From Algibacter sp. L1A34 (GTDB taxonomy: Bacteria > Bacteroidota > Bacteroidia > Flavobacteriales > Flavobacteriaceae): a DNA stretch of 64,000 nt. Positions 23,645-48,181 of this stretch are shown here, one piece after another (position 1 is the stretch's first letter; the number at the start of each line of letters is the position of its first letter). Where the stretch lies: the NCBI RefSeq assembly GCF_009796805.1, contig NZ_CP047029.1, forward strand, positions 310,001 to 374,000. The letters are read 5' to 3'. A model generated the notes under the pieces. It was not told where the DNA came from. It did no database searches and saw only the letters and a program-made list of their open reading frames with translations. The translations under genes and the position numbers were made by a program.

Positions 23645-24484
23645 TTAATGTAAAACTAAAAAAGGAACATCGGTATAATAACTTATTTTTGGAGTTGTAG
23701 GATTAAATAAAATCTTTTGGAAATAATTTAAATTTTTCGCCAACATGGCTATTAAATCAATTTGCTTATTCTCAACGAAACCTTGCACCGCATCTTCAAT
23801 ATCATTATTTGTTAAGAAATGAAAACTGTGTTCTTGGTTGTTAAAATAATCGTCTAGAAATTCTTTATTCTTTTTTTGATCTTCATTTAAATCTGCCTTA
23901 TTTTTATTAATATGAAGTGCTCTTACTGCCGCATGGTTTCCTTCTACAATATCTGCCATAGGCTGTAATGTTTCTGCATGATAAAAAAATGAAAAATCTG
24001 TTGGAAATGCAATCTCTTTCATGTTCACATATTTAGCGTTTTCGGGAACAACTAATGTTGTGCATTTTACTTTTGTAATTACATTACCGGTATTCCTACC
24101 TACCGCCAAATTATTTAACCCCGATTCTCCACGGGTACCCATTACAATAAAATCAATCTTTTTTTCTGCAACCTGCTTCCTAATAGAATTAATAATGTAA
24201 TTATTATCCATAACAGGATAAAACCTATGGTTAGAATTTAAGTAAGGGCTTTTTATTATTCGTTTAATAGTTTGTTGTAAAAGTTTTTTTGAAGGACTTT
24301 TTACAATACTAGAAACTTTAGTACCACCAACGGCAGGCACTTTTTCGTGAAATCTTGAATCATCGGAAGTATCAACATGTAATATGTAAAAATTACATGC
24401 CGATTTACTAAAAAAGCGGAGGGCATACTCAATGGCATTCCATGCGTTTTCAGAAAAATCTGTGGGTATTAAAATATTCTTCAT
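23645..24484 (-). CDS. universal stress protein, two UspA domains
   Basis: A 279-residue tandem UspA protein. Domain 1 starts MKNILIPTDFSENAW and has the ATP-binding loop GTRGESGLNNLAVGRNTGNV near residue 120-140. Domain 2 (from about 155, IAFPTDFSFFYH) lacks the glycine-rich loop and probably no longer binds nucleotide. Flavobacterial Usp proteins are often induced when oxygen or energy is low. An Fnr-like palindrome (24535-24548) and a TATTTTTG box (24505-24512) lie in front with the same spacing as in front of ccoS and hemN, so it probably belongs to the same regulon. Confidence 0.9.
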   Translation of the reverse strand: MKNILIPTDFSENAWNAIEYALRFFSKSACNFYILHVDTSDDSRFHEKVPAVGGTKVSSIVKSPSKKLLQQTIKRIIKSPYLNSNHRFYPVMDNNYIINSIRKQVAEKKIDFIVMGTRGESGLNNLAVGRNTGNVITKVKCTTLVVPENAKYVNMKEIAFPTDFSFFYHAETLQPMADIVEGNHAAVRALHINKNKADLNEDQKKNKEFLDDYFNNQEHSFHFLTNNDIEDAVQGFVENKQIDLIAMLAKNLNYFQKILFNPTTPKISYYTDVPFLVLH

Positions 24485-24504: not shown

Positions 24505-24512
24505 CAAAAATA
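24505..24512 (-). promoter_or_regulatory. -7 box TATTTTTG of usp
   Basis: Exact TAnnTTTG match on the minus strand, 20 bp before the usp start codon; the last G (24505) is 36.5 bp from the centre of the palindrome at 24535-24548. Confidence 0.7.
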
Positions 24513-24534
24513 AAGGCAGGACACTTAAGGAAAT

Positions 24535-24548
24535 ATGACCAATATCAT
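24535..24548. promoter_or_regulatory. Fnr/FixK-like site upstream of usp
   Basis: ATGACCAATATCAT, of the form ATGAY-N4-RTCAT. Together with the -7 box it matches a class II activator position near -41. Confidence 0.7.
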
Positions 24549-24570
24549 AAATCCCCTATATTGCTAGAAT

Positions 24571-25620
24571 TTATTGGACTTCTTGAAGTTTATCTAAGTC
24601 TAAAATTTTAATGTTTCTACCTTCAATTTCAATAATACCACTGTCTTTAAAGCCAGAAAGTGTTCTAATTAAACTTTCGGTTGCTATACCTGCAACACTA
24701 GCTAAATCATTACGAGAAATTCTTATGGTATCTTCTGGATTTCGATTCAGTTTTTCGGCAAATTTTAAGATGGTATTTGCTGTTCTTTTTTTAACCGAGC
24801 TATATGCCATTTGTAGTAAGTGATCTTTAACATCGGTAAGGTTTTCTGTTAATAACTGAATAAGCTCTAAAGTAACTTGGTGATTATTATTAAGCACATC
24901 TTTAAGCGCACTTTTGGTAACACCTATTAAGGTAGTTTCTTTTATAGCCGTTGTAGATTCTTGATAAGTTGTATTTTGAATAAATGATGTATAACCAAAT
25001 AAATCGTCTTCCTTATAAAGCGCTGTTGTTAAGTCTTTACCTTTCTCATCAAATTTATGAGACTTCACTAAACCTTTAGAAATTAAATAAATATAATTAG
25101 AATTTTGCCCTTCCTGATAAATAACATCACCTTTTCCAAAGTTTATTACTTCACCATTATCATCAAAAAAATTCTTTAAATCGTTTAATGTTCTAATTTC
25201 AGATTCATCGGAACTTGTTCCTTCCTGTTCTTCATGTATATCTTTTAAAATAGCAGCTTTGGCTAGTCTACTTTCTATAGCACTAATAAGTTCTTCTTCT
25301 TCAAAAGGCTTGGTAATATAATCATCGGCACCTAAATCCATTCCTTTTCTAACATCTCTACGCTCCGTTTTTGCAGATAAAAATATAAAAGGGATATGCT
25401 TTGTACTTTCGTTTTTAGATAATGCTTCCAAAACGCCATAACCATCAAGTTCTGGCATCATAATATCGCAGATAATAATATTAGGTAAATTTTTAATAGC
25501 CCGTTCTACTCCAATTTTTCCATTTGGAGCTGTAATCATATTATAGTTAGATAATTCTAGTAATTCCGCTGTGTTCTCTCTTAAAACAACATCATCTTCT
25601 ATCAATAATACTTTATTCAT
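24571..25620 (-). CDS. response regulator with Crp/Fnr-type output (FixJ-FixK-like fusion)
   Basis: A 349-residue protein. Residues 1-120 are a receiver domain with acidic pair Asp9-Asp10, phospho-acceptor Asp52 (IICDIMMPELDG) and Lys104. Residues about 145-265 are a Crp-type sensory barrel (FGKGDVIYQEGQNSNYIY), and 270-349 a Crp/Fnr winged helix (ISRNDLASVAGIATESLIRT). It thus joins what rhizobia split into FixJ and FixK. Its ATG overlaps the stop of the histidine kinase by one base, so the two are a pair. It probably acts at the ATGAY-N4-RTCAT sites near usp, ccoI, ccoS and hemN; that link is inferred. Confidence 0.88.
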   Translation of the reverse strand: MNKVLLIEDDVVLRENTAELLELSNYNMITAPNGKIGVERAIKNLPNIIICDIMMPELDGYGVLEALSKNESTKHIPFIFLSAKTERRDVRKGMDLGADDYITKPFEEEELISAIESRLAKAAILKDIHEEQEGTSSDESEIRTLNDLKNFFDDNGEVINFGKGDVIYQEGQNSNYIYLISKGLVKSHKFDEKGKDLTTALYKEDDLFGYTSFIQNTTYQESTTAIKETTLIGVTKSALKDVLNNNHQVTLELIQLLTENLTDVKDHLLQMAYSSVKKRTANTILKFAEKLNRNPEDTIRISRNDLASVAGIATESLIRTLSGFKDSGIIEIEGRNIKILDLDKLQEVQ

Positions 25621-26867
25621 TATTCTGCTTTATTTTTTATTATAATTGTAAATATACTTCCTTTATTTTCTTCACTTACAAAACTTATAGTACCTCCTAA
25701 ATTTTCTAAATGATTTTTAACAATATTTAAACCAATACCTGTACCTTGTTCTAGTAAAGCATTTTCTGCTCTAAAATAGCGGTTAAATATCCTTTTTTGA
25801 TCTTTAATAGGAATCCCAATACCATTATCCTTTATATCAAATGTAGTATGCGTATTATCTTGCTTTATATGAATATCTACAATGGTGTTTTCAGATGAAT
25901 ACTTAATGGCATTATGCACCAAATTTGATAATGCTAATTCTAAAATCTTCTCATCCTGATGCATCGAATAATCGTCAATATTCTCAGGATAATTAATTTT
26001 CTGTCCATCTTTTAAAAGCATATTGGCATTATAAACCACCTCGTTAACCACTTTACTTAATTTAAAAGTAGTTAATTTATAATTCATTTTTCCGGTTTCT
26101 AATTTTTCAATAGATAAAAAATCGTTCAATATATTATTTAGGTAATGTACCTTATCAGAAATTGTTTTTATATGCTTATCTCTTCGTTCCTGCTGCTCAG
26201 TTAACTTATACTTACTCAGTAACATAGCCGACGTTAAAATACCACTTAAAGGTGTTTTAAACTCATGTGAAACTAAGGACAAAAACTTAGTTTTCAACTC
26301 ATTAAGCTCCTTTTCTTTTTTAAGCGCATTACTTATTTCATTTTGAGCATCAATACGTTTCTTTATTTCCTCGTCACGCTGAACATTTACTGTTTTTAAT
26401 TCTTTAACAGTATTACTTAATTCATTGGTACGCTCCTGCACTTTTTGTTCTAATTCCGTATTTAACTCTAGCAACTGGAGTTCTTGTTGCTTACGTATAG
26501 AAATATCTATAACCAAAGTCATTATATAAGACTCTCCATTAATTTCTAACGGATTTAAACCTGCTTCTACTGGAAATATAGAACCGTCTTTACGTGCGCC
26601 ATACAAATCCCGACCACGTCCCATTTTACGACTTTCCTTATGCTTCATAAAACCATCAAAATGAGCACCATGATCGGCATGATAGGTTTTTGGTATTAAA
26701 ATATTAAGGTCACTGTTTAGAAGTTCATTTTTAGTATAACCAAACATACTCTCGGAAGACCTGTTTGTAGCAACAATTTTCTGATGTTTATCTACAACAA
26801 TAACACCTTCTGAAACAGCTTCAAAAAGGACATTAAAAACACGATCATTATTTTGAAACATTAACAA
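25620..26867 (-). CDS. PAS histidine kinase, FixL-like
   Basis: A 415-residue soluble sensor kinase without membrane segments. Residues about 10-125 are a PAS domain whose segment ILIPKTYHADHGAHF aligns with the haem-binding helix of FixL; His66 aligns with the FixL proximal His (200 in Bradyrhizobium) and Arg86 with the distal Arg220, with identical 20-residue spacing. A coiled coil (about 130-195) leads to the H-box (LVSHEFKTPLSG, His202) and an HATPase domain (NAIKYSSEN, DNGIGIP, GTGIGLNIV). It overlaps the response regulator gene. Haem binding is a hypothesis because many non-haem PAS domains share parts of this motif. Confidence 0.88.
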   Translation of the reverse strand: MLMFQNNDRVFNVLFEAVSEGVIVVDKHQKIVATNRSSESMFGYTKNELLNSDLNILIPKTYHADHGAHFDGFMKHKESRKMGRGRDLYGARKDGSIFPVEAGLNPLEINGESYIMTLVIDISIRKQQELQLLELNTELEQKVQERTNELSNTVKELKTVNVQRDEEIKKRIDAQNEISNALKKEKELNELKTKFLSLVSHEFKTPLSGILTSAMLLSKYKLTEQQERRDKHIKTISDKVHYLNNILNDFLSIEKLETGKMNYKLTTFKLSKVVNEVVYNANMLLKDGQKINYPENIDDYSMHQDEKILELALSNLVHNAIKYSSENTIVDIHIKQDNTHTTFDIKDNGIGIPIKDQKRIFNRYFRAENALLEQGTGIGLNIVKNHLENLGGTISFVSEENKGSIFTIIIKNKAE

Positions 26868-26978
26868 ATATGATTTTAAACTTTATAATAAATATTAAAA
26901 TTGTAAACAAACAGAAAGAGTTATATAGCTTACAACTACTCACACCAAAATATTGTATTTTGTAAAAATAAATAAAAC

Positions 26979-26992
26979 ATGACAAATATCAT
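26979..26992. promoter_or_regulatory. Fnr/FixK-like site upstream of ccoI
   Basis: ATGACAAATATCAT in the divergent region between the histidine kinase and ccoI. The centre lies 36.5 bp before the last G of GATTTTTG (27015-27022). Confidence 0.72.
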
Positions 26993-27014
26993 ATTTAAAA
27001 TCGAGTTGATTTGT

Positions 27015-27022
27015 GATTTTTG
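27015..27022 (+). promoter_or_regulatory. -7 box GATTTTTG of ccoI
   Basis: TAnnTTTG with one mismatch in the first base, placed at the same distance from its palindrome as the usp, ccoS and hemN boxes. Confidence 0.6.
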
Positions 27023-27048
27023 TTTTAGGTATAATTGAGCAAATTTAA

Positions 27049-29427
27049 ATGAGTAAAACCCCTTGTTTTCACTGTGGTTTAGACGCGTCTGCGGCTAATA
27101 TCACATTTGATGATAAATCATTCTGTTGTAATGGTTGCAAAACCGTCTACGAAATATTCTCTACAAACGATTTAACGTGTTACTATGATTTACAAGCATC
27201 TGCAGGTACAAAACCTAGCGACATTGATGGTAAATACAACTTTCTAGACAATGCTAAAATTGTTGAAAGTATATTGGAATTCAACGATGAAAAAACTCAA
27301 ATAGCAACATTATACATTCCGCACATTCATTGTAGTTCTTGTATTTGGGTTCTTGAAAATTTAAATAAATTAAATCCTTCAATAAGGTCTTCTATTGTAA
27401 ACTTCGGAAAGAAAACAGTTAGAGTAACATACAACTGCGAAGCGATTTCGATAAAACAATTGGTTAAACTTTTAAGCAGTATTGGTTACGAACCTTTTAT
27501 TAGTTTAGACGATTATAGCGTTGGTAAAAAGAATGTAGACAGATCCTTAATTTATAAACTAGGCGTAGCTGGTTTTGCCTTCGGAAACATTATGTTTTTA
27601 TCGTTTCCAGAGTATTTCCAGGTAACTGGTTTTTGGATTGAAACATATGCACCTGTTTTTAGATGGCTCATGTTTTCCTTCTCACTTCCTGTGGTTTTTT
27701 ATTCGGGGCAAGATTATCTAATTTCAGCTTATAAAGGCTTACGTGCTAAAATTTTAAATATTGATGTCCCCATTTCACTGGGAATTATTGTTTTATTTAT
27801 AAGAAGCACGGCGGAAATTATTTTAAACCTTGGAACAGGCTTTTTTGATAGTTTGGCAGGACTTATTTTTTTCTTATTACTCGGAAAGTTTTTTCAGCAA
27901 AAAACCTATAACTTCCTATCATTCGAACGTGATTACAAATCGTATTTCCCTATCGGAATAACCAAATTACATACCGATGGAAAAGAAGAATCTGTACAAG
28001 TTTACGATATTGAAAAAGGCGATCGATTACTTATTAGAAATGAAGAATTAATTCCTGTAGACTGTATATTAATTAGCGGTAAAGCACGTATTGATTATAG
28101 CTTTGTAACTGGAGAATCTGAAGCAGTCTCAAAACAATCTGGCGATAAATTATTTGCAGGGGGAAAACAGCTAAAAGGCAGTATTGAGGTAGATGTTTTA
28201 AAAACCGTAGAACAAAGTTATTTAACCCAACTTTGGAGTAACGATGTTTTTAATAAAAATAAAGAAGATGGTTTTACAACCCTAACAAATGCTATTAGTA
28301 AAAAATTCACGATAGCCGTTTTAAGCATTGCCTTTATAGCCACTGTTTATTGGTTATTTATAGATCCATCAAAAGCTCTAAATGTTTTTACAGCCGTTTT
28401 AATAATAGCTTGCCCTTGTGCTATAGCATTAGCCGCACCTTTTACTTTCGGTAATTTACTTCGTATTTTTGGGAAACTAAAATTCTATGCAAAAAACGCT
28501 TCGGTTATCGAGCAGTTAGCAGCTATTAACACTATTATTTTTGATAAAACAGGAACTATAACGGCAAACAAGGAAACATCTATAAAATATGAAGGCTCTA
28601 ATCTTTCAAATGAAGAAGAAGCGCTTCTTAAAAGCACCTTACGTAATTCAAACCATCCTTTAAGCAGGTCCTTATACAGTCTTTTAGATAAGCATAACAT
28701 TGTAACTCTAGACAACTACGAAGAGCATATTGGTAAAGGTATTGAAGCAAAACACAACCAAGATACCATTAAAATAGGCTCTGCCCCTTTTGTTGGCTTT
28801 AATTCTGAAAACGCAACACTAAACACAGCTGTGTATGTTAGTACTAATAGCCAATATAAAGGACGATTTACTTTTTATAATAAATACAGAAAAGGACTTT
28901 CTAAATTGTTTAATAAATTAAAAAAACATTACGATTTAGTTATTCTTTCGGGCGATAATGCAGGTGAAACAGAAAACCTAACAAAGTTACTACCTGCAAA
29001 AACAAAACTATTTTTTAATCAGAAACCAGAAGATAAATTAGAATACATAAAACACCATCAAAAATCTGGAGCAAAAGTATTAATGATTGGTGATGGTCTA
29101 AACGATGCTGGGGCCTTGGCTCAAAGTAATGTAGGTATTGCTATTTCAGAAAACGTAAACATATTTTCTCCAGCATGTGATGCTATTCTCGACGCTTCAA
29201 AATTTAACGAATTACCCGATTTTATAAAAGCCTCCAAATCTGCTGTAAAAATTATAAAATATAGTTTTTTACTATCATTCGTTTATAATAGTATAGGGCT
29301 TTACTTTGCAGTTACAGGACAACTAGCACCTGTTATTGCTGCTATTTTAATGCCTTTAAGCTCAATTAGTATTGTTCTATTTACAACGGTTAGCACAAAT
29401 ATTTTAGGAAGAAAATTAAAAAATTAA
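27049..29427 (+). CDS. ccoI: P1B-type copper ATPase for cbb3 oxidase assembly
   Basis: A 792-residue heavy-metal P-type ATPase. The N-terminus has a Cys-rich segment (CFHCGL, CCNGCKTVYEIF) typical of CcoI/FixI, then an HMA-like domain with HCSSCIWVLENL. The membrane ion motif is IIACPCAIALAAP, the phosphorylation site FDKTGTIT, the HP motif NHPLSRS and the hinge GDGLNDAGAL. CcoI moves copper out of the cytoplasm for the oxidase Cu site. It heads the cco gene run, with an Fnr-like site and -7 box in front and a second such unit between it and ccoS. Confidence 0.93.
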   Translation: MSKTPCFHCGLDASAANITFDDKSFCCNGCKTVYEIFSTNDLTCYYDLQASAGTKPSDIDGKYNFLDNAKIVESILEFNDEKTQIATLYIPHIHCSSCIWVLENLNKLNPSIRSSIVNFGKKTVRVTYNCEAISIKQLVKLLSSIGYEPFISLDDYSVGKKNVDRSLIYKLGVAGFAFGNIMFLSFPEYFQVTGFWIETYAPVFRWLMFSFSLPVVFYSGQDYLISAYKGLRAKILNIDVPISLGIIVLFIRSTAEIILNLGTGFFDSLAGLIFFLLLGKFFQQKTYNFLSFERDYKSYFPIGITKLHTDGKEESVQVYDIEKGDRLLIRNEELIPVDCILISGKARIDYSFVTGESEAVSKQSGDKLFAGGKQLKGSIEVDVLKTVEQSYLTQLWSNDVFNKNKEDGFTTLTNAISKKFTIAVLSIAFIATVYWLFIDPSKALNVFTAVLIIACPCAIALAAPFTFGNLLRIFGKLKFYAKNASVIEQLAAINTIIFDKTGTITANKETSIKYEGSNLSNEEEALLKSTLRNSNHPLSRSLYSLLDKHNIVTLDNYEEHIGKGIEAKHNQDTIKIGSAPFVGFNSENATLNTAVYVSTNSQYKGRFTFYNKYRKGLSKLFNKLKKHYDLVILSGDNAGETENLTKLLPAKTKLFFNQKPEDKLEYIKHHQKSGAKVLMIGDGLNDAGALAQSNVGIAISENVNIFSPACDAILDASKFNELPDFIKASKSAVKIIKYSFLLSFVYNSIGLYFAVTGQLAPVIAAILMPLSSISIVLFTTVSTNILGRKLKN

Positions 29428-29507
29428 AAAAAATGCTTTTAACAAAATTTTAAGTTAAAAAAAAGTAATACATTTATCTAAATTAAAACATCAGAAACTA
29501 ATAAAAC

Positions 29508-29521
29508 ATGATAAATGTCAT
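29508..29521. promoter_or_regulatory. Fnr/FixK-like site upstream of ccoS-ccoNO
   Basis: ATGATAAATGTCAT, centred 36.5 bp before the last G of an exact TAnnTTTG box (29544-29551). It gives the oxidase structural genes their own promoter separate from ccoI. Confidence 0.75.
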
Positions 29522-29543
29522 GTTTTAGCCAAAAACATAAAAG

Positions 29544-29551
29544 TATTTTTG
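29544..29551 (+). promoter_or_regulatory. -7 box TATTTTTG of the ccoS-ccoNOQP run
   Basis: Exact TAnnTTTG match 21 bp upstream of the ccoS ATG. Confidence 0.72.
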
Positions 29552-29572
29552 GCGCATAACTTCAATTAAGGT

Positions 29573-29758
29573 ATGAGTGTTATATATATATTATTAACTA
29601 TTAGCATAATTGTTGCTATTGGCTTTTTTGTAGCGTTTATTATTGCTGTTCGAAATGGACAGTTCGATGATAGCTACACCCCCTCTGTTCGTATGCTTTT
29701 TGAAGATGAACTAGTTAAAGAAAAAACCAAAAAAACAATTTCAACTAAAAACGATTAA
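29573..29758 (+). CDS. ccoS: cbb3 oxidase assembly protein CcoS
   Basis: A 61-residue membrane protein with one N-terminal helix (VIYILLTISIIVAIGFFVAF) and a hydrophilic tail containing the family segment RNGQFDDSYTPSVRMLF. CcoS is needed for insertion of the haem and copper cofactors into cbb3 oxidase. It lies directly after ccoI and 10 bp before ccoNO, the expected place. Confidence 0.92.
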   Translation: MSVIYILLTISIIVAIGFFVAFIIAVRNGQFDDSYTPSVRMLFEDELVKEKTKKTISTKND

Positions 29759-29768
29759 CTTTTAATTT

Positions 29769-31964
29769 ATGGAAATGCAACAGTTTAAGTACGATAATAA
29801 AATCGTTACAAAATTTATTTATGCCACCATCGTTTTTGGTGTTGTGGGTATGTCGGTAGGTTTACTACTAGCATTCTTATTTTTATTCCCAAATTTAACC
29901 GATGGAATTCCTTGGTTAAGTTTTGGTAGATTAAGACCTCTACACACCAATGCTGTAATTTTTGCTTTTGTAGGTAACGCCATGTTTGCGGGTATTTATT
30001 ACTCTTTACAACGTTTACTAAAAACAAGAATGGCTAGTGATTTATTAAGTAATATTAACTTTTGGGGTTGGCAACTTATTATTGTTGCAGCAGCTATTAC
30101 ATTACCTTTAGGTTATACATCTACTAAAGAATATGCCGAATTAGAATGGCCAATAGATATAGCCATTACAATTGTTTGGGTTATTTTTGGTATCAACATG
30201 ATTTGGACTATTTTAAAACGTAGACAACGCCATTTATATGTTGCTATATGGTTTTACTTAGCCACATTCGTTACGGTTGCTGTACTTCATATTTTTAATA
30301 ATTTAGAATTACCTGTAAGTGCATTTAAAAGTTATTCTGTTTACGCAGGTGTTCAAGATGCCTTAGTGCAATGGTGGTATGGCCACAATGCAGTAGCATT
30401 CTTTTTAACAACACCATATTTAGGACTTATGTATTACTTTGTTCCTAAAGCTGCAAACAGACCCGTATACTCATATAGATTATCTATTGTACACTTTTGG
30501 TCTCTTATATTTATTTATATCTGGGCTGGACCTCACCACTTATTATATACAGCATTACCAGAATGGGCACAAGCCTTAGGTACTACATTCTCAATAATGT
30601 TATTAATGCCATCTTGGGGTGGTATGATTAATGGTTTATTAACACTTCGTGGTGCTTGGGACAAAGTACGTACCGATCCTGTTTTAAAATTCATGGTTGT
30701 AGCTATTACAGGTTATGGTATGGCAACGTTTGAAGGCCCAATGCTTTCTCTTAAAAGTGTAAATGCCGTAGCGCATTTTACCGATTGGATTATTGCACAC
30801 GTACACGTTGGTGCTCTAGCTTGGAATGGTTTCTTAGCCTTCGGTATGATCTATTATTTGATACCTCGTTTATTTAAAACAAAAATGCACTCCTTAAGCT
30901 TAATGAATCTACACTTTTGGATAGGTACATTAGGGATCATTATGTATGCATTACCTTTATATGTTGCTGGATTTACTCAATATTCTATGTGGCAACAATT
31001 TAATCCAGACGGTACCTTAGTATACGGTAACTTCTTGGAAACTGTTACCGAAATTATGCCAATGTACATGATGCGTGCTATTGGTGGTTGTTTATATATT
31101 AGTGGTATGTTTATCTTGGTTTTCAACGTCATCATGACTATAAGACAAGGTAGTAAAGTTGAAGACGAATTAGCCGAAGCACCAGCACTAGAACGCGTAT
31201 CTAAAAAACGTACTGCAAACGAAGGATGGCACACTTGGTTAGAGCGTAAACCGATCCAATTAACAATTTTAGCAACCATAGCCATTTTAATTGGTGGTAT
31301 TGTTCAAATTGTACCAACCCTTATGGTAAAATCTAATATCCCAACAATATCAAGTGTAAAACCATATACACCATTAGAATTAGAGGGTAGAGATATTTAT
31401 ATCCGTGAAGGTTGTGTAAGCTGCCACACACAAATGGTTCGTCCGTTTAGACATGAAGTTGAACGTTATGGTGAATACTCGAAAGCAGGAGAATTTGTTT
31501 ACGATCACCCATTCCTTTGGGGTTCTAAGCGTACCGGTCCAGATTTACATAGAATTGGAGCAAAATACTCAGACAACTGGCACTTTAACCACATGTACGA
31601 TCCACAAAGTACCTCTTCAGGTTCTATTATGCCAAGATATCCTTGGTTAATTACTGGAACGGGTAGTGAACTTGACAAATCTTTAACCGAAACAAAAATG
31701 GAAGCTATGGTTACTCTTGGCGTACCTTATTCGGAAGAAGAAATTGCAAACGCCCAAGAAGACATGTTGACACAAGGCGCTCAAATTGAAGAGAACTTAC
31801 ACCAAGATCCCGATTTCGCAAAAACTTATGAAGCTGATAAAAAATACGCAGCCGATAATGGAGAGCCGTTTATAGAAATGAAAAACAGAGAAATTGTTGC
31901 GCTAATTGCTTATTTACAGCGTTTAGGCACCGATATATCAGTTAAACCAGAACAACAAAATTAA
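29769..31964 (+). CDS. ccoNO: cbb3 cytochrome c oxidase, fused subunits I and II
   Basis: A 731-residue fusion. Residues about 1-490 are CcoN, the 12-helix haem-copper catalytic subunit; conserved histidines include those in RPLHTNAVIFAF, QWWYGHNAV, GPHHLLYT and IAHVHVGAL. Residues about 505-731 are CcoO, with one membrane anchor (LTILATIAILIGGIVQIVP) and a haem c site EGCVSCHTQMVRPF, and axial Met candidates such as GSIMPRYPWL. It reduces O2 to water at low oxygen and pumps protons. The N-O fusion is the usual Bacteroidota form; proteobacteria encode two proteins. Confidence 0.96.
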   Translation: MEMQQFKYDNKIVTKFIYATIVFGVVGMSVGLLLAFLFLFPNLTDGIPWLSFGRLRPLHTNAVIFAFVGNAMFAGIYYSLQRLLKTRMASDLLSNINFWGWQLIIVAAAITLPLGYTSTKEYAELEWPIDIAITIVWVIFGINMIWTILKRRQRHLYVAIWFYLATFVTVAVLHIFNNLELPVSAFKSYSVYAGVQDALVQWWYGHNAVAFFLTTPYLGLMYYFVPKAANRPVYSYRLSIVHFWSLIFIYIWAGPHHLLYTALPEWAQALGTTFSIMLLMPSWGGMINGLLTLRGAWDKVRTDPVLKFMVVAITGYGMATFEGPMLSLKSVNAVAHFTDWIIAHVHVGALAWNGFLAFGMIYYLIPRLFKTKMHSLSLMNLHFWIGTLGIIMYALPLYVAGFTQYSMWQQFNPDGTLVYGNFLETVTEIMPMYMMRAIGGCLYISGMFILVFNVIMTIRQGSKVEDELAEAPALERVSKKRTANEGWHTWLERKPIQLTILATIAILIGGIVQIVPTLMVKSNIPTISSVKPYTPLELEGRDIYIREGCVSCHTQMVRPFRHEVERYGEYSKAGEFVYDHPFLWGSKRTGPDLHRIGAKYSDNWHFNHMYDPQSTSSGSIMPRYPWLITGTGSELDKSLTETKMEAMVTLGVPYSEEEIANAQEDMLTQGAQIEENLHQDPDFAKTYEADKKYAADNGEPFIEMKNREIVALIAYLQRLGTDISVKPEQQN

Positions 31965-31988
31965 TAACCTCCAAAACAATATAAAATC

Positions 31989-32174
31989 ATGTTGAAATTT
32001 ATAAAATACCACATGGAGAGTATTGATGGTATCGAGATTTACCCAATAATTTCGTTAATCATATTCTTTACTTTTTTTGTACTTCTTTTTTGGTGGGTTA
32101 TTACTGCAAAAAAAGACTATATACAAAACGTTAGCAACCTGCCTTTAGAAACTCAAAACGACGAAACATTATGA
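31989..32174 (+). CDS. ccoQ: cbb3 oxidase subunit IV (CcoQ)
   Basis: A 61-residue protein with one membrane helix (IISLIIFFTFFVLLFWWVIT) and a short charged tail, matching CcoQ/FixQ in size and place between ccoNO and ccoP. CcoQ stabilises the oxidase complex. Its TGA overlaps the ATG of ccoP. The assignment rests mainly on position. Confidence 0.85.
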   Translation: MLKFIKYHMESIDGIEIYPIISLIIFFTFFVLLFWWVITAKKDYIQNVSNLPLETQNDETL

Positions 32175-33064
32175 GAAAACTAATTCCATCTTGGATACGA
32201 ATTCCCGTAGCCTTTTTAATAATTGTAGCCATAACAGAATACTTTGTAGATTCTGGTGGAAAACCAGCATTTATGGAATATACTGCTGTTCAATTATTTT
32301 TAATTTTAGTTCTTTTAATTTTAATAGCTATTGAAGCTGTTCTTGGAGCATTGGAAACTATTATGCTTCATAAATTAGATGAAGAAGCTAAAGCACGTTT
32401 CTTAGCCGAAAAGGAATTTGGTTATAAGTTTACTTGGTTAAAAGAGACTTACACCAAATTACTAGGTCAGAAACCTATTGAACAAGAAAGCGAAATAATT
32501 TTAGATCATAATTATGATGGCATAAAAGAATTAGATAATAATTTACCACCATGGTGGGTTTATGCTTTTTATATGTCGATTATTTTTGCTGTTGTATACT
32601 TCTTAAAGTATCAAGTATTTAATGGAGACACCCAACTTGATGAATTAGAAACAGAAATAGCAGAAGCTAGAATTTCTATTGAAGAATATAAAAAAACGGC
32701 TAAAGATTTAGTTGATTTTAATACTGTAACTCTACTAAGTGATGCTTCGGATTTAAAAGCAGGAAAAGCAACTTTTGAAACCAACTGCGTAGCATGCCAC
32801 ATGGCTGATGGTGGCGGTGGAATTGGCCCAAACTTAACCGATAAACATTGGATTTTAGGCGGTGATATTAAGCATGTATTTAAAACAGTATCTGAAGGAG
32901 GTCGTTCAGGAAAAGGAATGATTGCTTGGAAATCACAACTTAAACCTGCTCAAATGGCACAAGTAGCTAGTTATGTTTTAAGCTTACAAGGTACAGCACC
33001 AGCAAACCCGAAAGAACCGCAAGGAGATATTTGGGAAGGCGAAGATACCGCAGAAATACAATAA
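32171..33064 (+). CDS. ccoP: cbb3 oxidase subunit III, mono-haem CcoP
   Basis: A 297-residue membrane-anchored cytochrome c. Two or three N-terminal helices (IPVAFLIIVAITEYF, LFLILVLLILIAIEAV, WVYAFYMSIIFAVVYF) precede a single cytochrome c domain with NCVACHMADGGGG and an axial Met in GKGMIAWKSQ. Proteobacterial CcoP has two haem c groups; only one CxxCH is present here, as in other Bacteroidota. It passes electrons to CcoO. Start ATG overlaps the ccoQ stop. Confidence 0.94.
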   Translation: MRKLIPSWIRIPVAFLIIVAITEYFVDSGGKPAFMEYTAVQLFLILVLLILIAIEAVLGALETIMLHKLDEEAKARFLAEKEFGYKFTWLKETYTKLLGQKPIEQESEIILDHNYDGIKELDNNLPPWWVYAFYMSIIFAVVYFLKYQVFNGDTQLDELETEIAEARISIEEYKKTAKDLVDFNTVTLLSDASDLKAGKATFETNCVACHMADGGGGIGPNLTDKHWILGGDIKHVFKTVSEGGRSGKGMIAWKSQLKPAQMAQVASYVLSLQGTAPANPKEPQGDIWEGEDTAEIQ

Positions 33065-33150
33065 AATTTAAGAATAGAATACAACTAACTCAATATATAT
33101 TCAAGACTTGCTAGTAAAACTAACTGGTAGGTCTACAATACCTAAAACAA

Positions 33151-34575
33151 GTGGAAACCCCAGAAAACGAAACATTTAGAGACTCCATAGGAACGATTAC
33201 CGAAGATGGTAAACGTGCTTGGGTATTCCCAAAGAAACCTAGTGGAAAGTTTTATAAGTATCGTAAATACGTAAGCTACGGTTTATTAGCATTTTTATTA
33301 CTCGCACCATTTATAAAGATTAATGGTAATCAGTTTTTAATGTTTAATATTCTTGAGCGCCGATTTAATATTTTTGGTTTTCCTTTTTGGCCACAAGATT
33401 TTCATCTATTTGTAATATCGATGATTATTGGCGTTGTATTTGTAGCGCTCTTTACTGTAGCGTTTGGACGTATTTTCTGTGGATGGATTTGTCCGCAAAC
33501 CATTTTTATGGAAATGGTATTTAGACGTATCGAGTATTGGATTGAAGGTGATAGAGGTAAACAAATGCGTTTAGCAAAAATGCCTTGGAATGCTGAAAAG
33601 ATTAGAAAGAAAACATTAAAAACGGTAATTTTCATATTAATATCGTTTATAATAGCCAATGTATTTTTAGCTTATTTAATAAGCAGCGATACGCTAATTT
33701 CCTATATAACCGATGGCCCCGCAGAACATTTAAGTACGCTAATATCTCTAACGATATTTACAGCCGTATTCTATTTTATTTTTGCATGGTTTAGAGAGCA
33801 AGTTTGTATTATAGCTTGTCCTTATGGAAGGTTACAAGGTGTACTTTTAGATACAAAATCTATTGTTGTGGCTTACGACCATAAACGCGGAGAGGCTGAA
33901 AATGGTAGAAAAAAATTCAGAAAAAGTGAAGACCGAGAAGCTTTAGGGCATGGAGATTGTATAGATTGTATGCAATGTGTAAACGTTTGTCCTACAGGAA
34001 TAGATATTAGAAACGGTACGCAATTAGAATGTGTAAATTGTACAGCTTGTATTGATGAATGCGACCATATTATGGAAAGTATTAACCTTCCAAAAGGGTT
34101 AATTCGTTATACGAGTGAAGAAAATATAGAAAAGAAAACGCCGTTTAAATTTACACCAAGAATTAAAGGGTATACAGCGGTATTGGCTATTTTAACAGGT
34201 TTACTTATTGGTATGTTATTTTTAAGAAATGATGTAGAAGCCAATATTTTAAGGCTACCAGGTCAACTTTATGAACATAAGGACAATAACATTATTAGTA
34301 ACGTGTTTACTTATAAATTGGTTAACAAAACATCGGAAGATATAAATGATGTTAGTTTTAAGCTGATGTCACATAAAGGAGAATTGAAATTAGTAGCAAC
34401 TCACGATCATTTTATAGTACCTAGACAGCAAATCTCTAAAGGGACTTTGTTTGTTGAAATAAACAATTCGGCTTTAAGTGGCGATAGAAATAAAATTAAA
34501 ATCGGAATTTACTCTGGTGATAAATTAATTGAAACCACTACTGCTAACTTTTTAGGGCCACGAAGTTTTAAGTAA
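33151..34575 (+). CDS. ccoG: cytochrome c oxidase accessory protein CcoG
   Basis: A 474-residue membrane iron-sulfur protein (FixG family). It has several membrane helices, conserved Cys in FCGWICPQTIF and IIACPYGRLQG, and a two-cluster ferredoxin domain (CIDCMQCVNVCP near 270 and CVNCTACIDECD). The C-terminal 120 residues form the periplasmic Ig-like domain. CcoG reduces Cu(II) for cbb3 assembly. The start is a GTG at 33151, 86 bp after ccoP, and no earlier ATG gives the family N-terminus. It is followed by repeat copy B before ccoH. Confidence 0.95.
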   Translation: METPENETFRDSIGTITEDGKRAWVFPKKPSGKFYKYRKYVSYGLLAFLLLAPFIKINGNQFLMFNILERRFNIFGFPFWPQDFHLFVISMIIGVVFVALFTVAFGRIFCGWICPQTIFMEMVFRRIEYWIEGDRGKQMRLAKMPWNAEKIRKKTLKTVIFILISFIIANVFLAYLISSDTLISYITDGPAEHLSTLISLTIFTAVFYFIFAWFREQVCIIACPYGRLQGVLLDTKSIVVAYDHKRGEAENGRKKFRKSEDREALGHGDCIDCMQCVNVCPTGIDIRNGTQLECVNCTACIDECDHIMESINLPKGLIRYTSEENIEKKTPFKFTPRIKGYTAVLAILTGLLIGMLFLRNDVEANILRLPGQLYEHKDNNIISNVFTYKLVNKTSEDINDVSFKLMSHKGELKLVATHDHFIVPRQQISKGTLFVEINNSALSGDRNKIKIGIYSGDKLIETTTANFLGPRSFK

Positions 34576-34615
34576 ACCAATAATTATAAATTGAAAAGCA
34601 CCTTGGCAGATGTGT

Positions 34616-34699
34616 GCATTAGGGATTGAACGACCTGTTTGAGCTCCCCGACCAAAGGAAGGGAGCGAGTAGTGAAAGCCCGACCCGTAGGGTAATGCC
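34616..34699 (+). repeat. dispersed structured element, copy B, inside the cco run
   Basis: An 84-nt copy. The ends pair perfectly (GCATTA / TAATGC), the central arm is GAGCTCCC / GGGAGCGAG-like, and a small hairpin ACCC-gta-GGGT follows GAAAGCCCG. It is on the same strand as the cco genes, 40 bp after ccoG and 77 bp before ccoH. Confidence 0.8.
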
Positions 34700-34708
34700 A
34701 TTAATTAA

Positions 34709-34729
34709 GTAGACCGTGAATTAGTCTAC
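34709..34729 (+). other. short hairpin between repeat copy B and ccoH
   Basis: Stem GTAGAC / GTCTAC with a nine-base loop and no T-run, so not a typical terminator. It may be a processing or pausing site in the ccoG-ccoH leader; nothing else supports this. Confidence 0.3.
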
Positions 34730-34776
34730 AGTTGTACAGTCTTTAAGATTGTGTAAAATGAATAAAAAAATGTGTT

Positions 34777-35226
34777 ATGAAATTTAATTGGGGAACTGGA
34801 GTTGTATTAGCATTTATTGGCTTTATAACATTTATAATGTACTTTGTTATTAGTATGTTTTCGAGCGAAAATTTTAAAAATGACTTAGTTACAGAAGATT
34901 ATTATGGAGCAGAATTGCTGTACCAAAATGATATAAACAAAATTAAAAATTCGGAGCAATTAACAGAAAACGTTAGCTATTTACAAACCAGCGCGGGCTT
35001 AAAAATTGTTTTTCCTAAGGAATTTGATTCTAAAAAAATTACAGGAAAAGTGTTCCTATATAGACCATCTAACAAACAACTAGACTTTGAGACTTCTATT
35101 GTTTCACTGTCTGATTCTAATTTGCTCATACCTGACAAACGTTTGGTAGATGGTCGTTGGAACATTAAAATTGATTGGCAATATAAGGGAAATTCTTATC
35201 TATTTAAAGAATCTATAATTTATTAA
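34777..35226 (+). CDS. ccoH: FixH/CcoH family protein
   Basis: A 149-residue protein with one membrane helix (residues about 8-28, VVLAFIGFITFIMYFV), the family segment LVTEDYYGAELLYQ just after it, and a periplasmic beta-rich domain. CcoH contributes to cbb3 assembly, late copper or subunit insertion. It follows ccoG after a 201-bp gap filled by repeat copy B and is two bases from the SafE-like gene. Confidence 0.9.
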   Translation: MKFNWGTGVVLAFIGFITFIMYFVISMFSSENFKNDLVTEDYYGAELLYQNDINKIKNSEQLTENVSYLQTSAGLKIVFPKEFDSKKITGKVFLYRPSNKQLDFETSIVSLSDSNLLIPDKRLVDGRWNIKIDWQYKGNSYLFKESIIY

Positions 35227-35227
35227 C

Positions 35228-35929
35228 ATGCTTTTCTCGGCATTTATACTTGGCTTATTGGGTAGTTTTCACTGTGTGGGCATGTGTGGACCTATTGCTT
35301 TTATGCTTCCCGTTGACCGGAATAATGCGTTTAAAAAAGCAGTTCAGATTGGTGTTTATCACTTTGGCAGACTGCTTGCTTACAGTATAATTGGCCTTGT
35401 TTTTGGATTAATTGGCAAGAGTTTATTTTTGTTTGGGTTCCAACAACAGCTTTCTATTTTTATTGGTGTTTTAATGATTTTAGTGGTTTTAATTCCGCAG
35501 AAAATCTTTAATAAATATAATTTTTCGAAACCTATTTATCGACTTATTTCTAAAGTTAAATCTGCTTTAGGCTCTGCCATGAAGAAAAAAACGATGGATA
35601 CCTTTTTAACTATTGGTTTTTTGAATGGATTTTTACCTTGTGGCTTAGTTTATATGGCTGTTTTTGCTGCTATTGCAAGCGGAAACGCACTAAGTGGTAG
35701 TTTGTATATGGCTGTTTTTGGTTTAGGAACTATACCCTTAATGACTACGGCAATATATTTCTCACAATTTTTAAAGGGTGCTGCACGACAAAAAATACAG
35801 AAAGCTATTCCTGTTTTTATTGTAATTATTGGTCTTTTATTTATTATTCGAGGTTTAGGCTTGGGTATTCCGTACTTATCTCCTACTCCTGTTTATGATA
35901 TGGTTTCGTCTGGTATAGACTGCCATTAA
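35228..35929 (+). CDS. SafE/TauE-like membrane protein linked to cbb3 assembly
   Basis: A 233-residue protein with about six membrane helices of the sulfite exporter TauE/SafE superfamily. The first helix ends in the motif FHCVGMCGPI, found in the branch that lies next to ccoI/ccoG/ccoH genes and often proposed to handle copper. The start is one base after the ccoH stop, so the two are co-translated. True sulfite export is unlikely in this context; a metal-related role is inferred from position and the His/Cys/Met motif. Confidence 0.88.
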   Translation: MLFSAFILGLLGSFHCVGMCGPIAFMLPVDRNNAFKKAVQIGVYHFGRLLAYSIIGLVFGLIGKSLFLFGFQQQLSIFIGVLMILVVLIPQKIFNKYNFSKPIYRLISKVKSALGSAMKKKTMDTFLTIGFLNGFLPCGLVYMAVFAAIASGNALSGSLYMAVFGLGTIPLMTTAIYFSQFLKGAARQKIQKAIPVFIVIIGLLFIIRGLGLGIPYLSPTPVYDMVSSGIDCH

Positions 35930-35963
35930 CAATTATTTTTTATTTGAATTTCATATAAAAAAA

Positions 35964-36003
35964 TAATTTCGCCACCCTGAGTTTAATCAGAATGACGAAA
36001 TTA
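35964..36003. terminator. inverted repeat between convergent SafE-like and usp genes
   Basis: Outer arms TAATTTCG / CGAAATTA and inner arms CACCCTGA / TCAGAATG (imperfect) around TTTAA. Placed between two convergent genes, it could terminate both. The inner part resembles short CACCCTGA...TCAGAATGAC palindromes that recur in Bacteroidota genomes, so it may also be a dispersed repeat. Confidence 0.5.
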
Positions 36004-36026
36004 CATCCATTACAACAGAAAATCTT

Positions 36027-36863
36027 TTATTCCATCTTTATTGTTAGAACTGGTAAAGTAGAATGATTAACAACATCCTCTCCTACACTTCCTTGAAAGA
36101 AGTGAGCTAAACCTTTTCGTCCATGTGTTGGCATTACAATTAAGTCTGCTTTACTTTTATTAGAGAAATGTAAAATACCATCATCTACCGTATAATCGGA
36201 AACGAAACGTAAATCTTCTAAGTGGTTTAAGCTTCTATCGGCTTTAGTAAAAAAGTGAACTGCCTTTTTCTCTAATTCCGTAGTACTTTGAAATCTCTCG
36301 TTTGGCAAATTAACATGTACTAAATATATTTTAGAAGCAACATCTTGAAACATCTTACGAGTATTTATGTAAGACTGTATAGATTCTTCTTCTAAATCTG
36401 TTGCAAGCACAATAACATCGAAATTAACATCTACAACATTATTCTTTACTATTAAAACAGGTATTTCGGAATTTCTAACCACACGCTCAGTATTAGATCC
36501 AATAAACATTTCTTGGATTCCACTTGAGCCATGAGAACCCATAATTATAATATCGACATTATTCTCTTTGGCAACATCATTAACTTCACTAAATACCTTA
36601 AAATGCTTTATTATAGGAGTTACATTCACTCCTTTTAAATAATCTTTATCTAAGAAATCTTTAAACTTTTTTTCTGCTAATTTCATAAAAAAAACAGCTT
36701 GTTGTCCTAACAGCTCATCTGAGGCAGTTAGTGCAACTGTAGACATTTCTAGCATATGTAAAACAAGCACCTCTGCGTCATGTTTTTTTGCTAATGTAGC
36801 TGCGGTTTTTAAAGCATATTCTGAATGTTCTGAAAAATCGATGGGTACAATAATTTTTTTCAT
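36027..36863 (-). CDS. universal stress protein, two UspA domains
   Basis: A 278-residue tandem UspA protein. Domain 1 begins MKKIIVPIDFSEHSEYALK and has MGSHGSSGIQEMFIGSNTE. Domain 2 ends with MPTHGRKGLAHFFQGSVGED, so both domains keep the nucleotide-binding loop, unlike the paralogue at 23645-24484. It lies between the cco run and hemN, suggesting a role in low-oxygen or energy stress. No Fnr-like palindrome is found upstream, so its regulation may differ. Confidence 0.92.
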   Translation of the reverse strand: MKKIIVPIDFSEHSEYALKTAATLAKKHDAEVLVLHMLEMSTVALTASDELLGQQAVFFMKLAEKKFKDFLDKDYLKGVNVTPIIKHFKVFSEVNDVAKENNVDIIIMGSHGSSGIQEMFIGSNTERVVRNSEIPVLIVKNNVVDVNFDVIVLATDLEEESIQSYINTRKMFQDVASKIYLVHVNLPNERFQSTTELEKKAVHFFTKADRSLNHLEDLRFVSDYTVDDGILHFSNKSKADLIVMPTHGRKGLAHFFQGSVGEDVVNHSTLPVLTIKME

Positions 36864-36941
36864 TTTTTTTCTTTTTAAGTTGTTGTTAGATTTAAGGGAA
36901 ATTACAGCTTACTAAATTATTAAAATAATTGGATTAAACTA

Positions 36942-38306
36942 TTAAACCGTCATAGAAAATAATTGTGTATCGGGTTGTTTACGCTGCAGCAACAAATCGA
37001 AAGCCATACAGATGTTTCTAACAAATGGTTGTCCTTTTTCGGTAACCTCAATACTATTCTTGTCTATTGTTAATAAACCGTCCTGCTCCATTTCTTTTAA
37101 GCGAACTAAGACATCCGGCAACTCTGGAAAGCGAAGTTCTTCATTCATCCAACTTGTTTTAAAACGACACATTAAATTAAGAATGTGTTGCCTTATTACT
37201 AAATCTTCTTCATTTAAAATATGCCCTCTATAAACGGGTATAATATTATCTTCTAATAAATTATAATAACTCTCTAGGCCTTTAACGTTTTGTGAAAACC
37301 CATACCAACTATCACTTATAGAAGAAACCCCTAAACCTATCATAGCCTGCGTTTTAGAAGCGGTATACCCCATGAAGTTACGGTGTAAATTACCGTTTTC
37401 CATAGATTTAAAAAGGCTGTCTGTTTTTAATGCAAAATGGTCCATACCAATTTCATTATAACCTACTTCGGCAAGTAATTGTTTTCCTAACTCGTATTGT
37501 TTTCTTTTTAATTCTGGTGCTGGTAAATCTTGATCGTTAAAACCTCGTTGACCATTACCTTTTATCCATGGCACATGCGCATAACTGTAAAACGCCAATC
37601 GATCTGGCAATAGCTCCTTTGTTTTTAAGATTGTAGATTTAACATGATCTATAGTCTGAAATGGTAAACCGAAAATAATATCATGACCAACAGAGGTGTA
37701 ACCAACTTCTCTAGCCAATTCTGTAGCACGCTTTACGTTTTCAAAAGGTTGAATACGATGAATGGCTTTCTGAACGGTTTCGTTGTAATCTTGCACTCCA
37801 TAACTTACTCGTCTAAATCCAACATCAAAAAGAGCTTGTAAATGTTCACGAGTGGTATTATTAGGATGTCCCTCAAAGCTAAATTCGTAATTATCGGCTA
37901 AAACAGATCGTTTTATAATACCGTTAATTAATAGTTTTAAATGTTCTGGACTAAAAAATGTTGGTGTTCCACCTCCAAGGTGTAATTCCTTAATAATTGG
38001 TTTTTCATCGAACAACTCTAAATATAAATCCCACTCTCTTAAAACTGCATTTATGTATGGAGACTCTACACTGTGTTGTTTAGTAATACGCTTATTACAA
38101 CCACAAAATGTACATAAACTTTCGCAAAAAGGAAGATGAATATAAAGGCTAATACCTTCTTTGGAATTACTTTCCTTAAAAGATTGTATTAACGATTGTT
38201 TCCATTGGTTTAATGAAAAAGTCTCATTATTCCAATAGGGAACAGTTGGATAACTCGTATATCGAGGTCCAGAAATATTATATTTATCAACTAATGAATT
38301 ATTCAT
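36942..38306 (-). CDS. hemN: oxygen-independent coproporphyrinogen III oxidase
   Basis: A 454-residue radical SAM enzyme that converts coproporphyrinogen III to protoporphyrinogen IX without O2. The cluster motif is FCESLCTFCGC near residue 62, followed by the SAM-binding GGGTPTFF and a C-terminal HemN domain (GHILNEEDLVIRQHILNL). I place the start at the ATG at 38306 rather than 38315 because the -7 box TAATTTTG at 38324-38331 would leave almost no leader for the upstream codon. The Fnr-like palindrome at 38354-38367 fits anaerobic induction. It supplies haem for the cbb3 cytochromes when oxygen is low. Confidence 0.95.
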   Translation of the reverse strand: MNNSLVDKYNISGPRYTSYPTVPYWNNETFSLNQWKQSLIQSFKESNSKEGISLYIHLPFCESLCTFCGCNKRITKQHSVESPYINAVLREWDLYLELFDEKPIIKELHLGGGTPTFFSPEHLKLLINGIIKRSVLADNYEFSFEGHPNNTTREHLQALFDVGFRRVSYGVQDYNETVQKAIHRIQPFENVKRATELAREVGYTSVGHDIIFGLPFQTIDHVKSTILKTKELLPDRLAFYSYAHVPWIKGNGQRGFNDQDLPAPELKRKQYELGKQLLAEVGYNEIGMDHFALKTDSLFKSMENGNLHRNFMGYTASKTQAMIGLGVSSISDSWYGFSQNVKGLESYYNLLEDNIIPVYRGHILNEEDLVIRQHILNLMCRFKTSWMNEELRFPELPDVLVRLKEMEQDGLLTIDKNSIEVTEKGQPFVRNICMAFDLLLQRKQPDTQLFSMTV

Positions 38307-38323
38307 GCTTAACATTTAATATT

Positions 38324-38331
38324 CAAAATTA
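38324..38331 (-). promoter_or_regulatory. -7 box TAATTTTG of hemN
   Basis: Exact TAnnTTTG match on the minus strand; its last G (38324) is 36.5 bp from the centre of the palindrome at 38354-38367. Confidence 0.72.
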
Positions 38332-38353
38332 TAGGAATCCTTTCGTTAAATAT

Positions 38354-38367
38354 ATGATATATATCAT
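38354..38367. promoter_or_regulatory. Fnr/FixK-like site between hemN and the YceI gene
   Basis: ATGATATATATCAT, a perfect palindrome. It has the standard spacing to the hemN box. Toward the YceI gene the nearest box, TATTATTG at 38388-38395, has one mismatch and is 34.5 bp away, so control of that gene is less certain. Confidence 0.75.
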
Positions 38368-48117: not shown

Positions 48118-48167
48118 GACTACTTATTTTAATACTGTAAAATTATTATAATTAGCAAAAAGCAACT

Positions 48168-48181
48168 ATGACAATTATCAT
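48168..48181. promoter_or_regulatory. Fnr-like palindrome upstream of tonB
   Basis: ATGACAATTATCAT fits ATGAY-N4-RTCAT and is 57 bp from the tonB start, but no TAnnTTTG-like box lies at the 36.5-bp distance seen at the other sites, so function is uncertain. Confidence 0.4.

Follow-up and report, generated by a model that had tools for sequence, protein, structure and literature searches.

Class II activation by proteins of the Crp/Fnr family is known as a class of mechanism; to our knowledge, little is known about the geometry of activators at Bacteroidota promoters. The FF-41.5 promoter has been used as a class II FNR promoter (PMC4505428), and in rhizobia the hFixL-FxkR-FixK route and FnrN meet on one anaerobox at fixNOQP (PMC7888657). 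The Crp/Fnr proteins of a Flavobacteriales genome have been assigned to a carbon-sensing, MalR-like group (PMC8510549). In this study, we analysed a window of 64,000 nucleotides (nt), bases 310001-374000 of the single-contig 4.64 Mb genome of Algibacter sp. L1A34 (NZ_CP047029.1), in which palindromes of the form ATGAY-N4-RTCAT stand at one fixed distance from the promoter box TAnnTTTG. These promoters very probably belong to a class II (-41.5) low-oxygen regulon of Bacteroidota, whose operator a one-component FNR would share with a two-component receiver-Crp protein. The geometry, its enrichment in this genome and across genomes, the target genes, their conservation and the association with either regulator gene were read directly from the letters.

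An earlier note on this window had placed four palindromes with boxes before usp, ccoI, ccoS-NOQP and hemN, and all of these places and strands were found to be correct. In all four cases the distance from the palindrome centre to the last G of the box was 36.5, as claimed, which corresponds to a gap of 22 nt; the gap is counted throughout as the nucleotides between the 14-mer ATGAY-N4-RTCAT and the 8-base box TAnnTTTG. The boxes, described as being of the TAnnTTTG type, matched it exactly at usp, ccoS-NOQP and hemN, and were one base off at ccoI (GAnnTTTG). The spacing of 29 bp proposed for a genome scan holds when counted from the palindrome centre; used instead as the palindrome-to-box gap (N25-33), it gave no match in the genome. 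Furthermore, the four promoters were not the whole set of the window, as a fifth palindrome at 48168-48181 had been overlooked. The five promoters and the genes behind them are as follows.

24535..24548, minus strand: operator before usp(-fnr), palindrome ATGATATTGGTCAT, written on the minus strand
24505..24512, minus strand: -7 box before usp, TATTTTTG, gap 22 nt
23645..24484, minus strand: usp (universal stress protein)
26979..26992, plus strand: operator before ccoI, ATGACAAATATCAT
27015..27022, plus strand: -7 box before ccoI, GATTTTTG, 7 of 8 bases, gap 22 nt
27049..29427, plus strand: ccoI-type heavy-metal P-type ATPase, called ccoI for its position next to the cco operon
29508..29521, plus strand: operator before ccoS-NOQP, ATGATAAATGTCAT, kept at ccoN of relatives
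29544..29551, plus strand: -7 box before ccoS-NOQP, TATTTTTG, gap 22 nt
29573..29758, plus strand: ccoS (FixS family)
29769..31964, plus strand: ccoNO, cbb3 oxidase subunits I and II, fused
38354..38367, minus strand: operator before hemN, ATGATATATATCAT
38324..38331, minus strand: -7 box before hemN, TAATTTTG, gap 22 nt
36942..38315, minus strand: hemN (oxygen-independent coproporphyrinogen III oxidase)
48168..48181, minus strand: fifth operator, before a tonB-like gene, ATGATAATTGTCAT
48138..48145, minus strand: -7 box before the tonB-like gene, TAATTTTA, 7 of 8 bases (TAnnTTTA), gap 22 nt
47386..48117, minus strand: tonB-like gene (TonB_C)

Mapped promoters of Flavobacterium psychrophilum have the sigma-A box TAnnTTTG at -12 to -5 (PMC9723704). 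If the last G stands at -5, the centre of the palindrome falls at -41.5, 36.5 nt before the last base of the box, so that the activator position proposed earlier, about -41 to -43, was right in substance. The site centre near -41.5 expected of a class II promoter was thus found, and so was a strict spacing to the core element, in the genome itself, in the family and at the ccoNO loci described below. These data support a class II Crp/Fnr promoter geometry for the palindrome-box layout, from which we infer binding and activation. The common spacing had also been held to exceed chance, and the counts agree. For the five palindromes (10 orientations, 61 spacings), the probability of three or more exact boxes at one common spacing was about 5e-6 using the box frequency of the window itself, and 1.4e-4 when the box was taken as three times commoner.

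Across the genome, ATGAY-N4-RTCAT occurs at 28 sites (56 orientations), the five window sites included. An exact TAnnTTTG followed nine times at a gap of 22 and at most once at every other gap from 0 to 79; with at least 7 of the 8 bases required, the box was seen 19 times at gap 22 and at most four times elsewhere. The palindrome alone was dropped as a marker, its 28 places comparing with 27 for the reversed control. The combined pattern TGAY-N4-RTCA-N23-TAnnTTTG gave 21 exact matches against one for the reversed pattern, and 61 against 23 when up to one mismatch was allowed. The palindrome was intact in 49 of these 61 matches and broken in the other 12. An open reading frame (ORF) on the same strand began within 400 bp of 43 of the 49 intact-palindrome matches (42 genes), including all 21 exact ones, and of only 4 of the 12 broken ones. 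The combined pattern is therefore not equally frequent in coding regions, which the note had named as a result that would speak against it. The six remaining intact matches (339478, 1745031, 2203238, 3128421, 3602978 and 4573969) had no same-strand ORF within 400 bp and were taken as chance or as wrong ORF starts; 339478 and 1745031 are the back sides of two other sites.

The layout was then followed in 149 Flavobacteriaceae genomes, the own genome included. With a variable gap, at least 150 matches were obtained, from 19 genomes among the matches listed; the 140 matches listed for the other genomes had a gap of 22 in 60 cases and of 23 in 15, with at most eight at each other gap. With the gap fixed, the layout was present in 134 of the 149 genomes, with 1165 matches against 22 for the reversed pattern. 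Both motifs are short and AT-rich, and the count of the palindrome alone hardly differs from that of its control, which would suit a chance alignment of AT-rich motifs; this explanation is already refuted by the genome-wide and family-wide counts, and its probability is negligible.

Next, 80 ccoNO loci were compared over the 600 bp upstream of ccoN; the closest named relative found for ccoNO was that of Tamlana agarivorans (90%). Upstream of ccoN, 83 intact palindromes were present in 73 of the 80 loci. The exact box followed them 41 times at gap 22, six times at 44, three times at 21, twice at 23 and once at 58, and at none of the remaining gaps up to 59. With one mismatch allowed, it was found 55 times at gap 22, 23 times at 44, 10 times at -1, where the palindrome end overlaps a T run, and at most five times elsewhere. 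When the best box was chosen per locus, 58 of the 80 loci had it at 22, four at 21, two at 23, one at 28 and 15 had none; this count favours gaps near 22, and the unbiased all-gap count is the one relied on.

The 55 spacers of gap 22 (box with up to one mismatch) were on average only 39% alike, and so it is the distance that is kept and not the sequence. Conservation is highest in a T run at -33 to -30 (T in 46 to 50 of the 55), which is possibly a remnant of a -33 element. This run sits directly 3' of the palindrome while the other spacer positions drift. A palindrome covering about -48 to -35 could exclude the polymerase, and might accordingly be a repressor site blocking the -33 region. Repressor sites tolerate many positions, whereas here one spacing holds across diverged genomes while the spacer sequence drifts. 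Moreover, the cbb3 oxidase and the haem-synthesis enzymes of F. psychrophilum rise on oxygen limitation (PMC9723704), which also speaks against repression, and we regard it as improbable.

In a draw of 247 genomes from the phylum, the layout was matched in all 27 genomes of the family, all three others of the order, 27 of the 31 others of the class and 47 of the remaining 186; most of these 186 had zero or one match. The peak at gap 44 upstream of ccoN was due to tandem promoters, in which palindromes centred at -63.5 and -41.5 lie 22 bp apart and the near one often has a weak left half (CTAAT). Such promoters were met mainly outside Flavobacteriaceae. With one mismatch allowed in the far site, 16 loci were of this kind, as listed here.

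Tandem ccoN loci: L121, L134, L140, L141, L142, L144-L147, L151, L154-L157, L162, L163

One of them, L163, is titled Flavobacteriaceae bacterium. A class-wide search of 295 genomes for two palindromes at free spacing, with duplicates on both strands merged, gave at least 112 distinct sites in 46 genomes among the matches listed; 52 of these listed sites (30 genomes) had a centre spacing of 22, and at most six shared any other spacing. From the 52, 40 loci were fetched with the box not required. In their 82 orientations, the exact TAnnTTTG occurred 15 times at gap 22 and at most twice at other gaps, and with up to one mismatch 30 times against at most five. Counted by locus, the gap-22 box was present in 27 of the 40 with up to one mismatch and exactly in 14; the boxed loci precede ccoN, ccoI, usp and BON genes, among others. 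Tandem strand-matches at any spacing averaged 3.24 per genome with a receiver-Crp protein (n = 140, 34 with zero) and 1.16 without one (n = 154, 83 with zero), a comparison made without kinship correction. Palindrome and box might also form one composite promoter read by an alternative sigma factor, with which the fixed spacing and the shared box would be compatible. The upstream element is, however, a symmetric 12-mer of Crp/Fnr type that can be doubled at 22 bp, the layout tracks Crp/Fnr genes as described below, and the box is an ordinary sigma-A box. A sigma-factor promoter is accordingly highly improbable, more so than a repressor site.

The candidate activators and a kinase are encoded beside the usp promoter.

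22913..23596, minus strand: FNR-like Crp/Fnr regulator, 227 amino acids (aa)
24571..25620, minus strand: receiver-Crp fusion regulator, 349 aa, with Response_reg, cNMP_binding and HTH_Crp_2
25620..26867, minus strand: PAS histidine kinase, overlapping the receiver-Crp gene

Genomes of the family sample were classed by our own cut-offs, up to about 1e-41 for FNR and about 1e-70 for the receiver-Crp protein (E value). The mean number of layout matches per genome was 14.1 with both regulators (n = 36), 6.5 with FNR only (n = 55), 8.9 with the receiver-Crp protein only (n = 30) and 1.2 with neither (n = 28, 15 with none); no genome with either regulator had zero matches. Among genomes at least 90% complete, the means were 14.1 (35), 6.15 (46) and 9.07 (28), respectively, and 0.76 with neither regulator (n = 17, 9 with none). 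Target genes were then read for 76 matches: all 38 listed for four receiver-Crp-only genomes and 38 of the 41 listed for five FNR-only genomes. One more FNR-only genome of the listing, G033, stood outside this reading. Behind the layout, ccoS was found in 3/4 receiver-Crp-only and 5/5 FNR-only genomes and hemN in 4/4 and 5/5, followed by cytochrome c (3/4 and 3/5), hpf (2/4 and 2/5) and usp (3/4 and 1/5). In these small samples, pta, pfl and nrfH were seen in FNR-only genomes only and mlaE in receiver-Crp-only genomes only. The recurrence of the same genes under either regulator indicates that operators are kept at several genes whichever regulator is present.

An alternative is that one regulator only uses the operator, the other being associated with it through common descent or through a third Crp/Fnr paralogue. 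The genome has ten HTH_Crp_2 matches, two of them in the window, and four of its own proteins carry a TExxIR helix, with a related helix in one further; the association with the regulator genes is, moreover, correlative. Against this alternative, both the 55 FNR-only and the 30 receiver-Crp-only genomes keep the layout with none at zero, and the nine genomes whose targets were read have it at the same genes. In the genome G101, the only match to the FNR query (E <=1e-10) was the receiver-Crp protein itself, and nine exact sites were kept there nonetheless. We therefore consider use by a single regulator rather unlikely, and prefer an operator common to both.

The FNR-like protein has the Crp/Fnr fold with a DNA-binding helix-turn-helix (HTH); its structure model reached a mean predicted local distance difference test score (pLDDT) of 89.7, and the best fold match was 2gau, a Crp/Fnr protein of Porphyromonas gingivalis. 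Two sets of aligned sequences, one reaching down to 37% identity, had cysteines 6, 9, 55 and 108 invariant in 36 of 36 (the protein and 35 relatives). The recognition helix reads ATES-x-IR in the 36 sequences of one set, and in the other, wider set E, I and R are invariant; the three own receiver-Crp proteins have a TES or TET-x-IR helix. In alignment with Aliivibrio fischeri FNR (5E44 and related), Cys 6, 9 and 108 correspond and the third N-terminal Cys is replaced by Asn15. If its iron-sulfur (Fe-S) ligands are assigned after those of FNR, one ligand of this protein would have moved to the beta-roll (Cys55). The kinase PAS domain matched 14 sequences in the PDB at E <=1e-5, of which 13 are haem-PAS sensors (FixL, DosP/Dos). 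The positions of the presumed haem His and distal Arg of such sensors are both kept. A separate FixJ receiver and FixK Crp/Fnr protein were not found here, both parts being fused in the 349-aa protein.

The 43 matches before 42 genes form a candidate regulon that includes five usp genes, ccoI, ccoS-NOQP and hemN. The regulon of usp, ccoI, ccoSNOQP and hemN suggested earlier is thus supported both genome-wide and comparatively, and was drawn too small, the set being about ten times larger. Downstream genes were named by family matches, which assigned no function to several of them. Among the others are nirK (copper nitrite reductase; TIGR02376, over cut-off), nrfH (TIGR03153, over cut-off), pyruvate formate lyase (pfl; a fragment at the locus end with 685 bits for TIGR01255 against a whole-protein cut-off of 994), phosphate acetyltransferase (pta; seen as a fragment) and phosphoenolpyruvate carboxykinase (pckA). 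Further candidates encode a cytochrome c, a ribosome hibernation-type factor (hpf), Hsp20, a CBS-domain protein, a ferritin-like (Dps-type) protein, a BON protein and an NADH:flavin oxidoreductase, and the gene at 3183697 encodes an alternate F1F0 ATPase beta subunit (NCBIfam TIGR03305, over cut-off). The set resembles an FNR/Anr-type low-oxygen and survival regulon.

Of the 49 intact-palindrome matches, 16 fall into one stretch of 83 kb (3.104-3.187 Mb), together with three usp genes, hsp20 and the genes for the ferritin-like protein, the BON protein and the alternate F1F0 ATPase beta subunit; a receiver-Crp gene (3137244-3138293) lies inside this island. Before the ATPase gene stand two identical palindromes ATGACCTAGGTCAT, 33 bp apart (3183596 and 3183629), the nearer of which is followed by TAATTTTA at a gap of 22.

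From these observations, we infer binding, activation, the oxygen signal, phosphorylation and the exact start sites in the following scheme. A dimer of Crp/Fnr type would bind TGAY-N4-RTCA centred 41.5 bp upstream of the start, where it would replace a working -33 element, contact the housekeeping polymerase and aid opening at TAnnTTTG (-12 to -5). The first activator would be the one-component FNR-like protein, which probably senses oxygen through an Fe-S site; the second would be the receiver-Crp fusion, probably switched on through phosphotransfer by the adjacent FixL-like, putatively haem-binding PAS kinase. The fnr-like gene lies 48 bp downstream of usp on the same strand, which suggests autoactivation: the usp promoter may also drive it, and a single promoter for usp and fnr would probably constitute a positive loop.

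Several observations weigh against this scheme. The palindrome by itself is not enriched, and the -41.5 position is taken from the start mapping of F. psychrophilum and not from starts of this organism. Two targets, nrfH (140 bp) and pckA (201 bp), have matches with one mismatch. Seven of the 80 ccoNO loci lacked an intact palindrome upstream of ccoN, one of them having only 2 bp of upstream sequence. The association with the regulators is correlative; many genomes that lack both are small, and relatives do not count as independent cases. The genome G138 has five exact matches with neither regulator at the thresholds used, and G048 (nine matches) and G147 (seven) also break the rule but are 82% and 73% complete; the FNR-only genomes G131, G123 and G085 have two matches each, and in G059, also FNR-only, the fnr match holds an internal stop. 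Of the four Cys ligands at FNR positions, three align. Any of the four own Crp/Fnr proteins with a TExxIR helix, or the one with a related helix, may act at a given promoter.

A wider picture, in which we place about as much belief as doubt, extends the regulon shared by FNR and the receiver-Crp protein to the class. Across Bacteroidia, one operator code at -41.5, often doubled at -63.5 outside Flavobacteriaceae, would be read interchangeably by an FNR with a relocated fourth cysteine and by a FixL-like haem kinase with its receiver-Crp fusion. Lineages would have lost or exchanged the regulator and kept the operators at the same genes, and stress genes would gather in islands around the receiver-Crp gene. 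The Bacteroidota polymerase reads an unusual -7 box, and the present data indicate that promoters with this box also follow the class II rule (-41.5). With 43 promoter matches in one genome, the regulon can be put to the test, and the pattern can be used to scan other flavobacteria. Two named regulators appear to replace each other on one operator, and direct tests of the control by oxygen become possible for a large group of environmental bacteria.

In the open-access literature, searched by titles and the beginnings of abstracts and with subscription papers mostly outside it, nothing was found on a class II regulon of FNR type in Bacteroidota. Likewise, no open-access precedent was found for class II Crp/Fnr activation at Bacteroidota -7 boxes, the regulon, the operator shared by FNR and receiver-Crp proteins or the 22-bp tandem, and a precedent in print is possible. 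Bacteroidota regulators of the Crp/Fnr family with palindromic sites are described as HcpR and HcpR2 in Bacteroides and Porphyromonas (PMC1274295); the HcpR2 motif differs from ours, being GTAAC-N4-GTTAC, and in most Bacteroides only hcp genes are predicted as targets. With A. fischeri and Escherichia coli FNR, the FNR-like protein shares the Crp fold, the N-terminal CxxC and the Cys of the VCxIP strand; unlike them, it has Asn15 for the third Cys, the invariant Cys55 in the beta-roll and a helix E-S-x-I-R instead of E-T-I-S-R. The 43 own promoter matches depart from the full FNR operator TTGAT-N4-ATCAA, although the core TGAY-N4-RTCA is common to both operators. The own core is mostly flanked by A or C and not by T, the outer left base being A in 47%, C in 35%, G in 14% and T in 5%.

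Proteobacterial class II FNR/CRP promoters of the FF-41.5 type likewise have a symmetric Crp/Fnr site at -41.5, beside the -10 region. Here, by contrast, the core element is the Bacteroidota TAnnTTTG box, and the -41.5 position comes from sequence comparison. The nearest parallel is rhizobial fixNOQP, where a route with a FixL-type kinase and an FNR-type route likewise converge on one operator at cbb3 genes. In contrast to that system, the receiver and the Crp/Fnr part form a single 349-aa protein here, and many genomes seem to have one route only.

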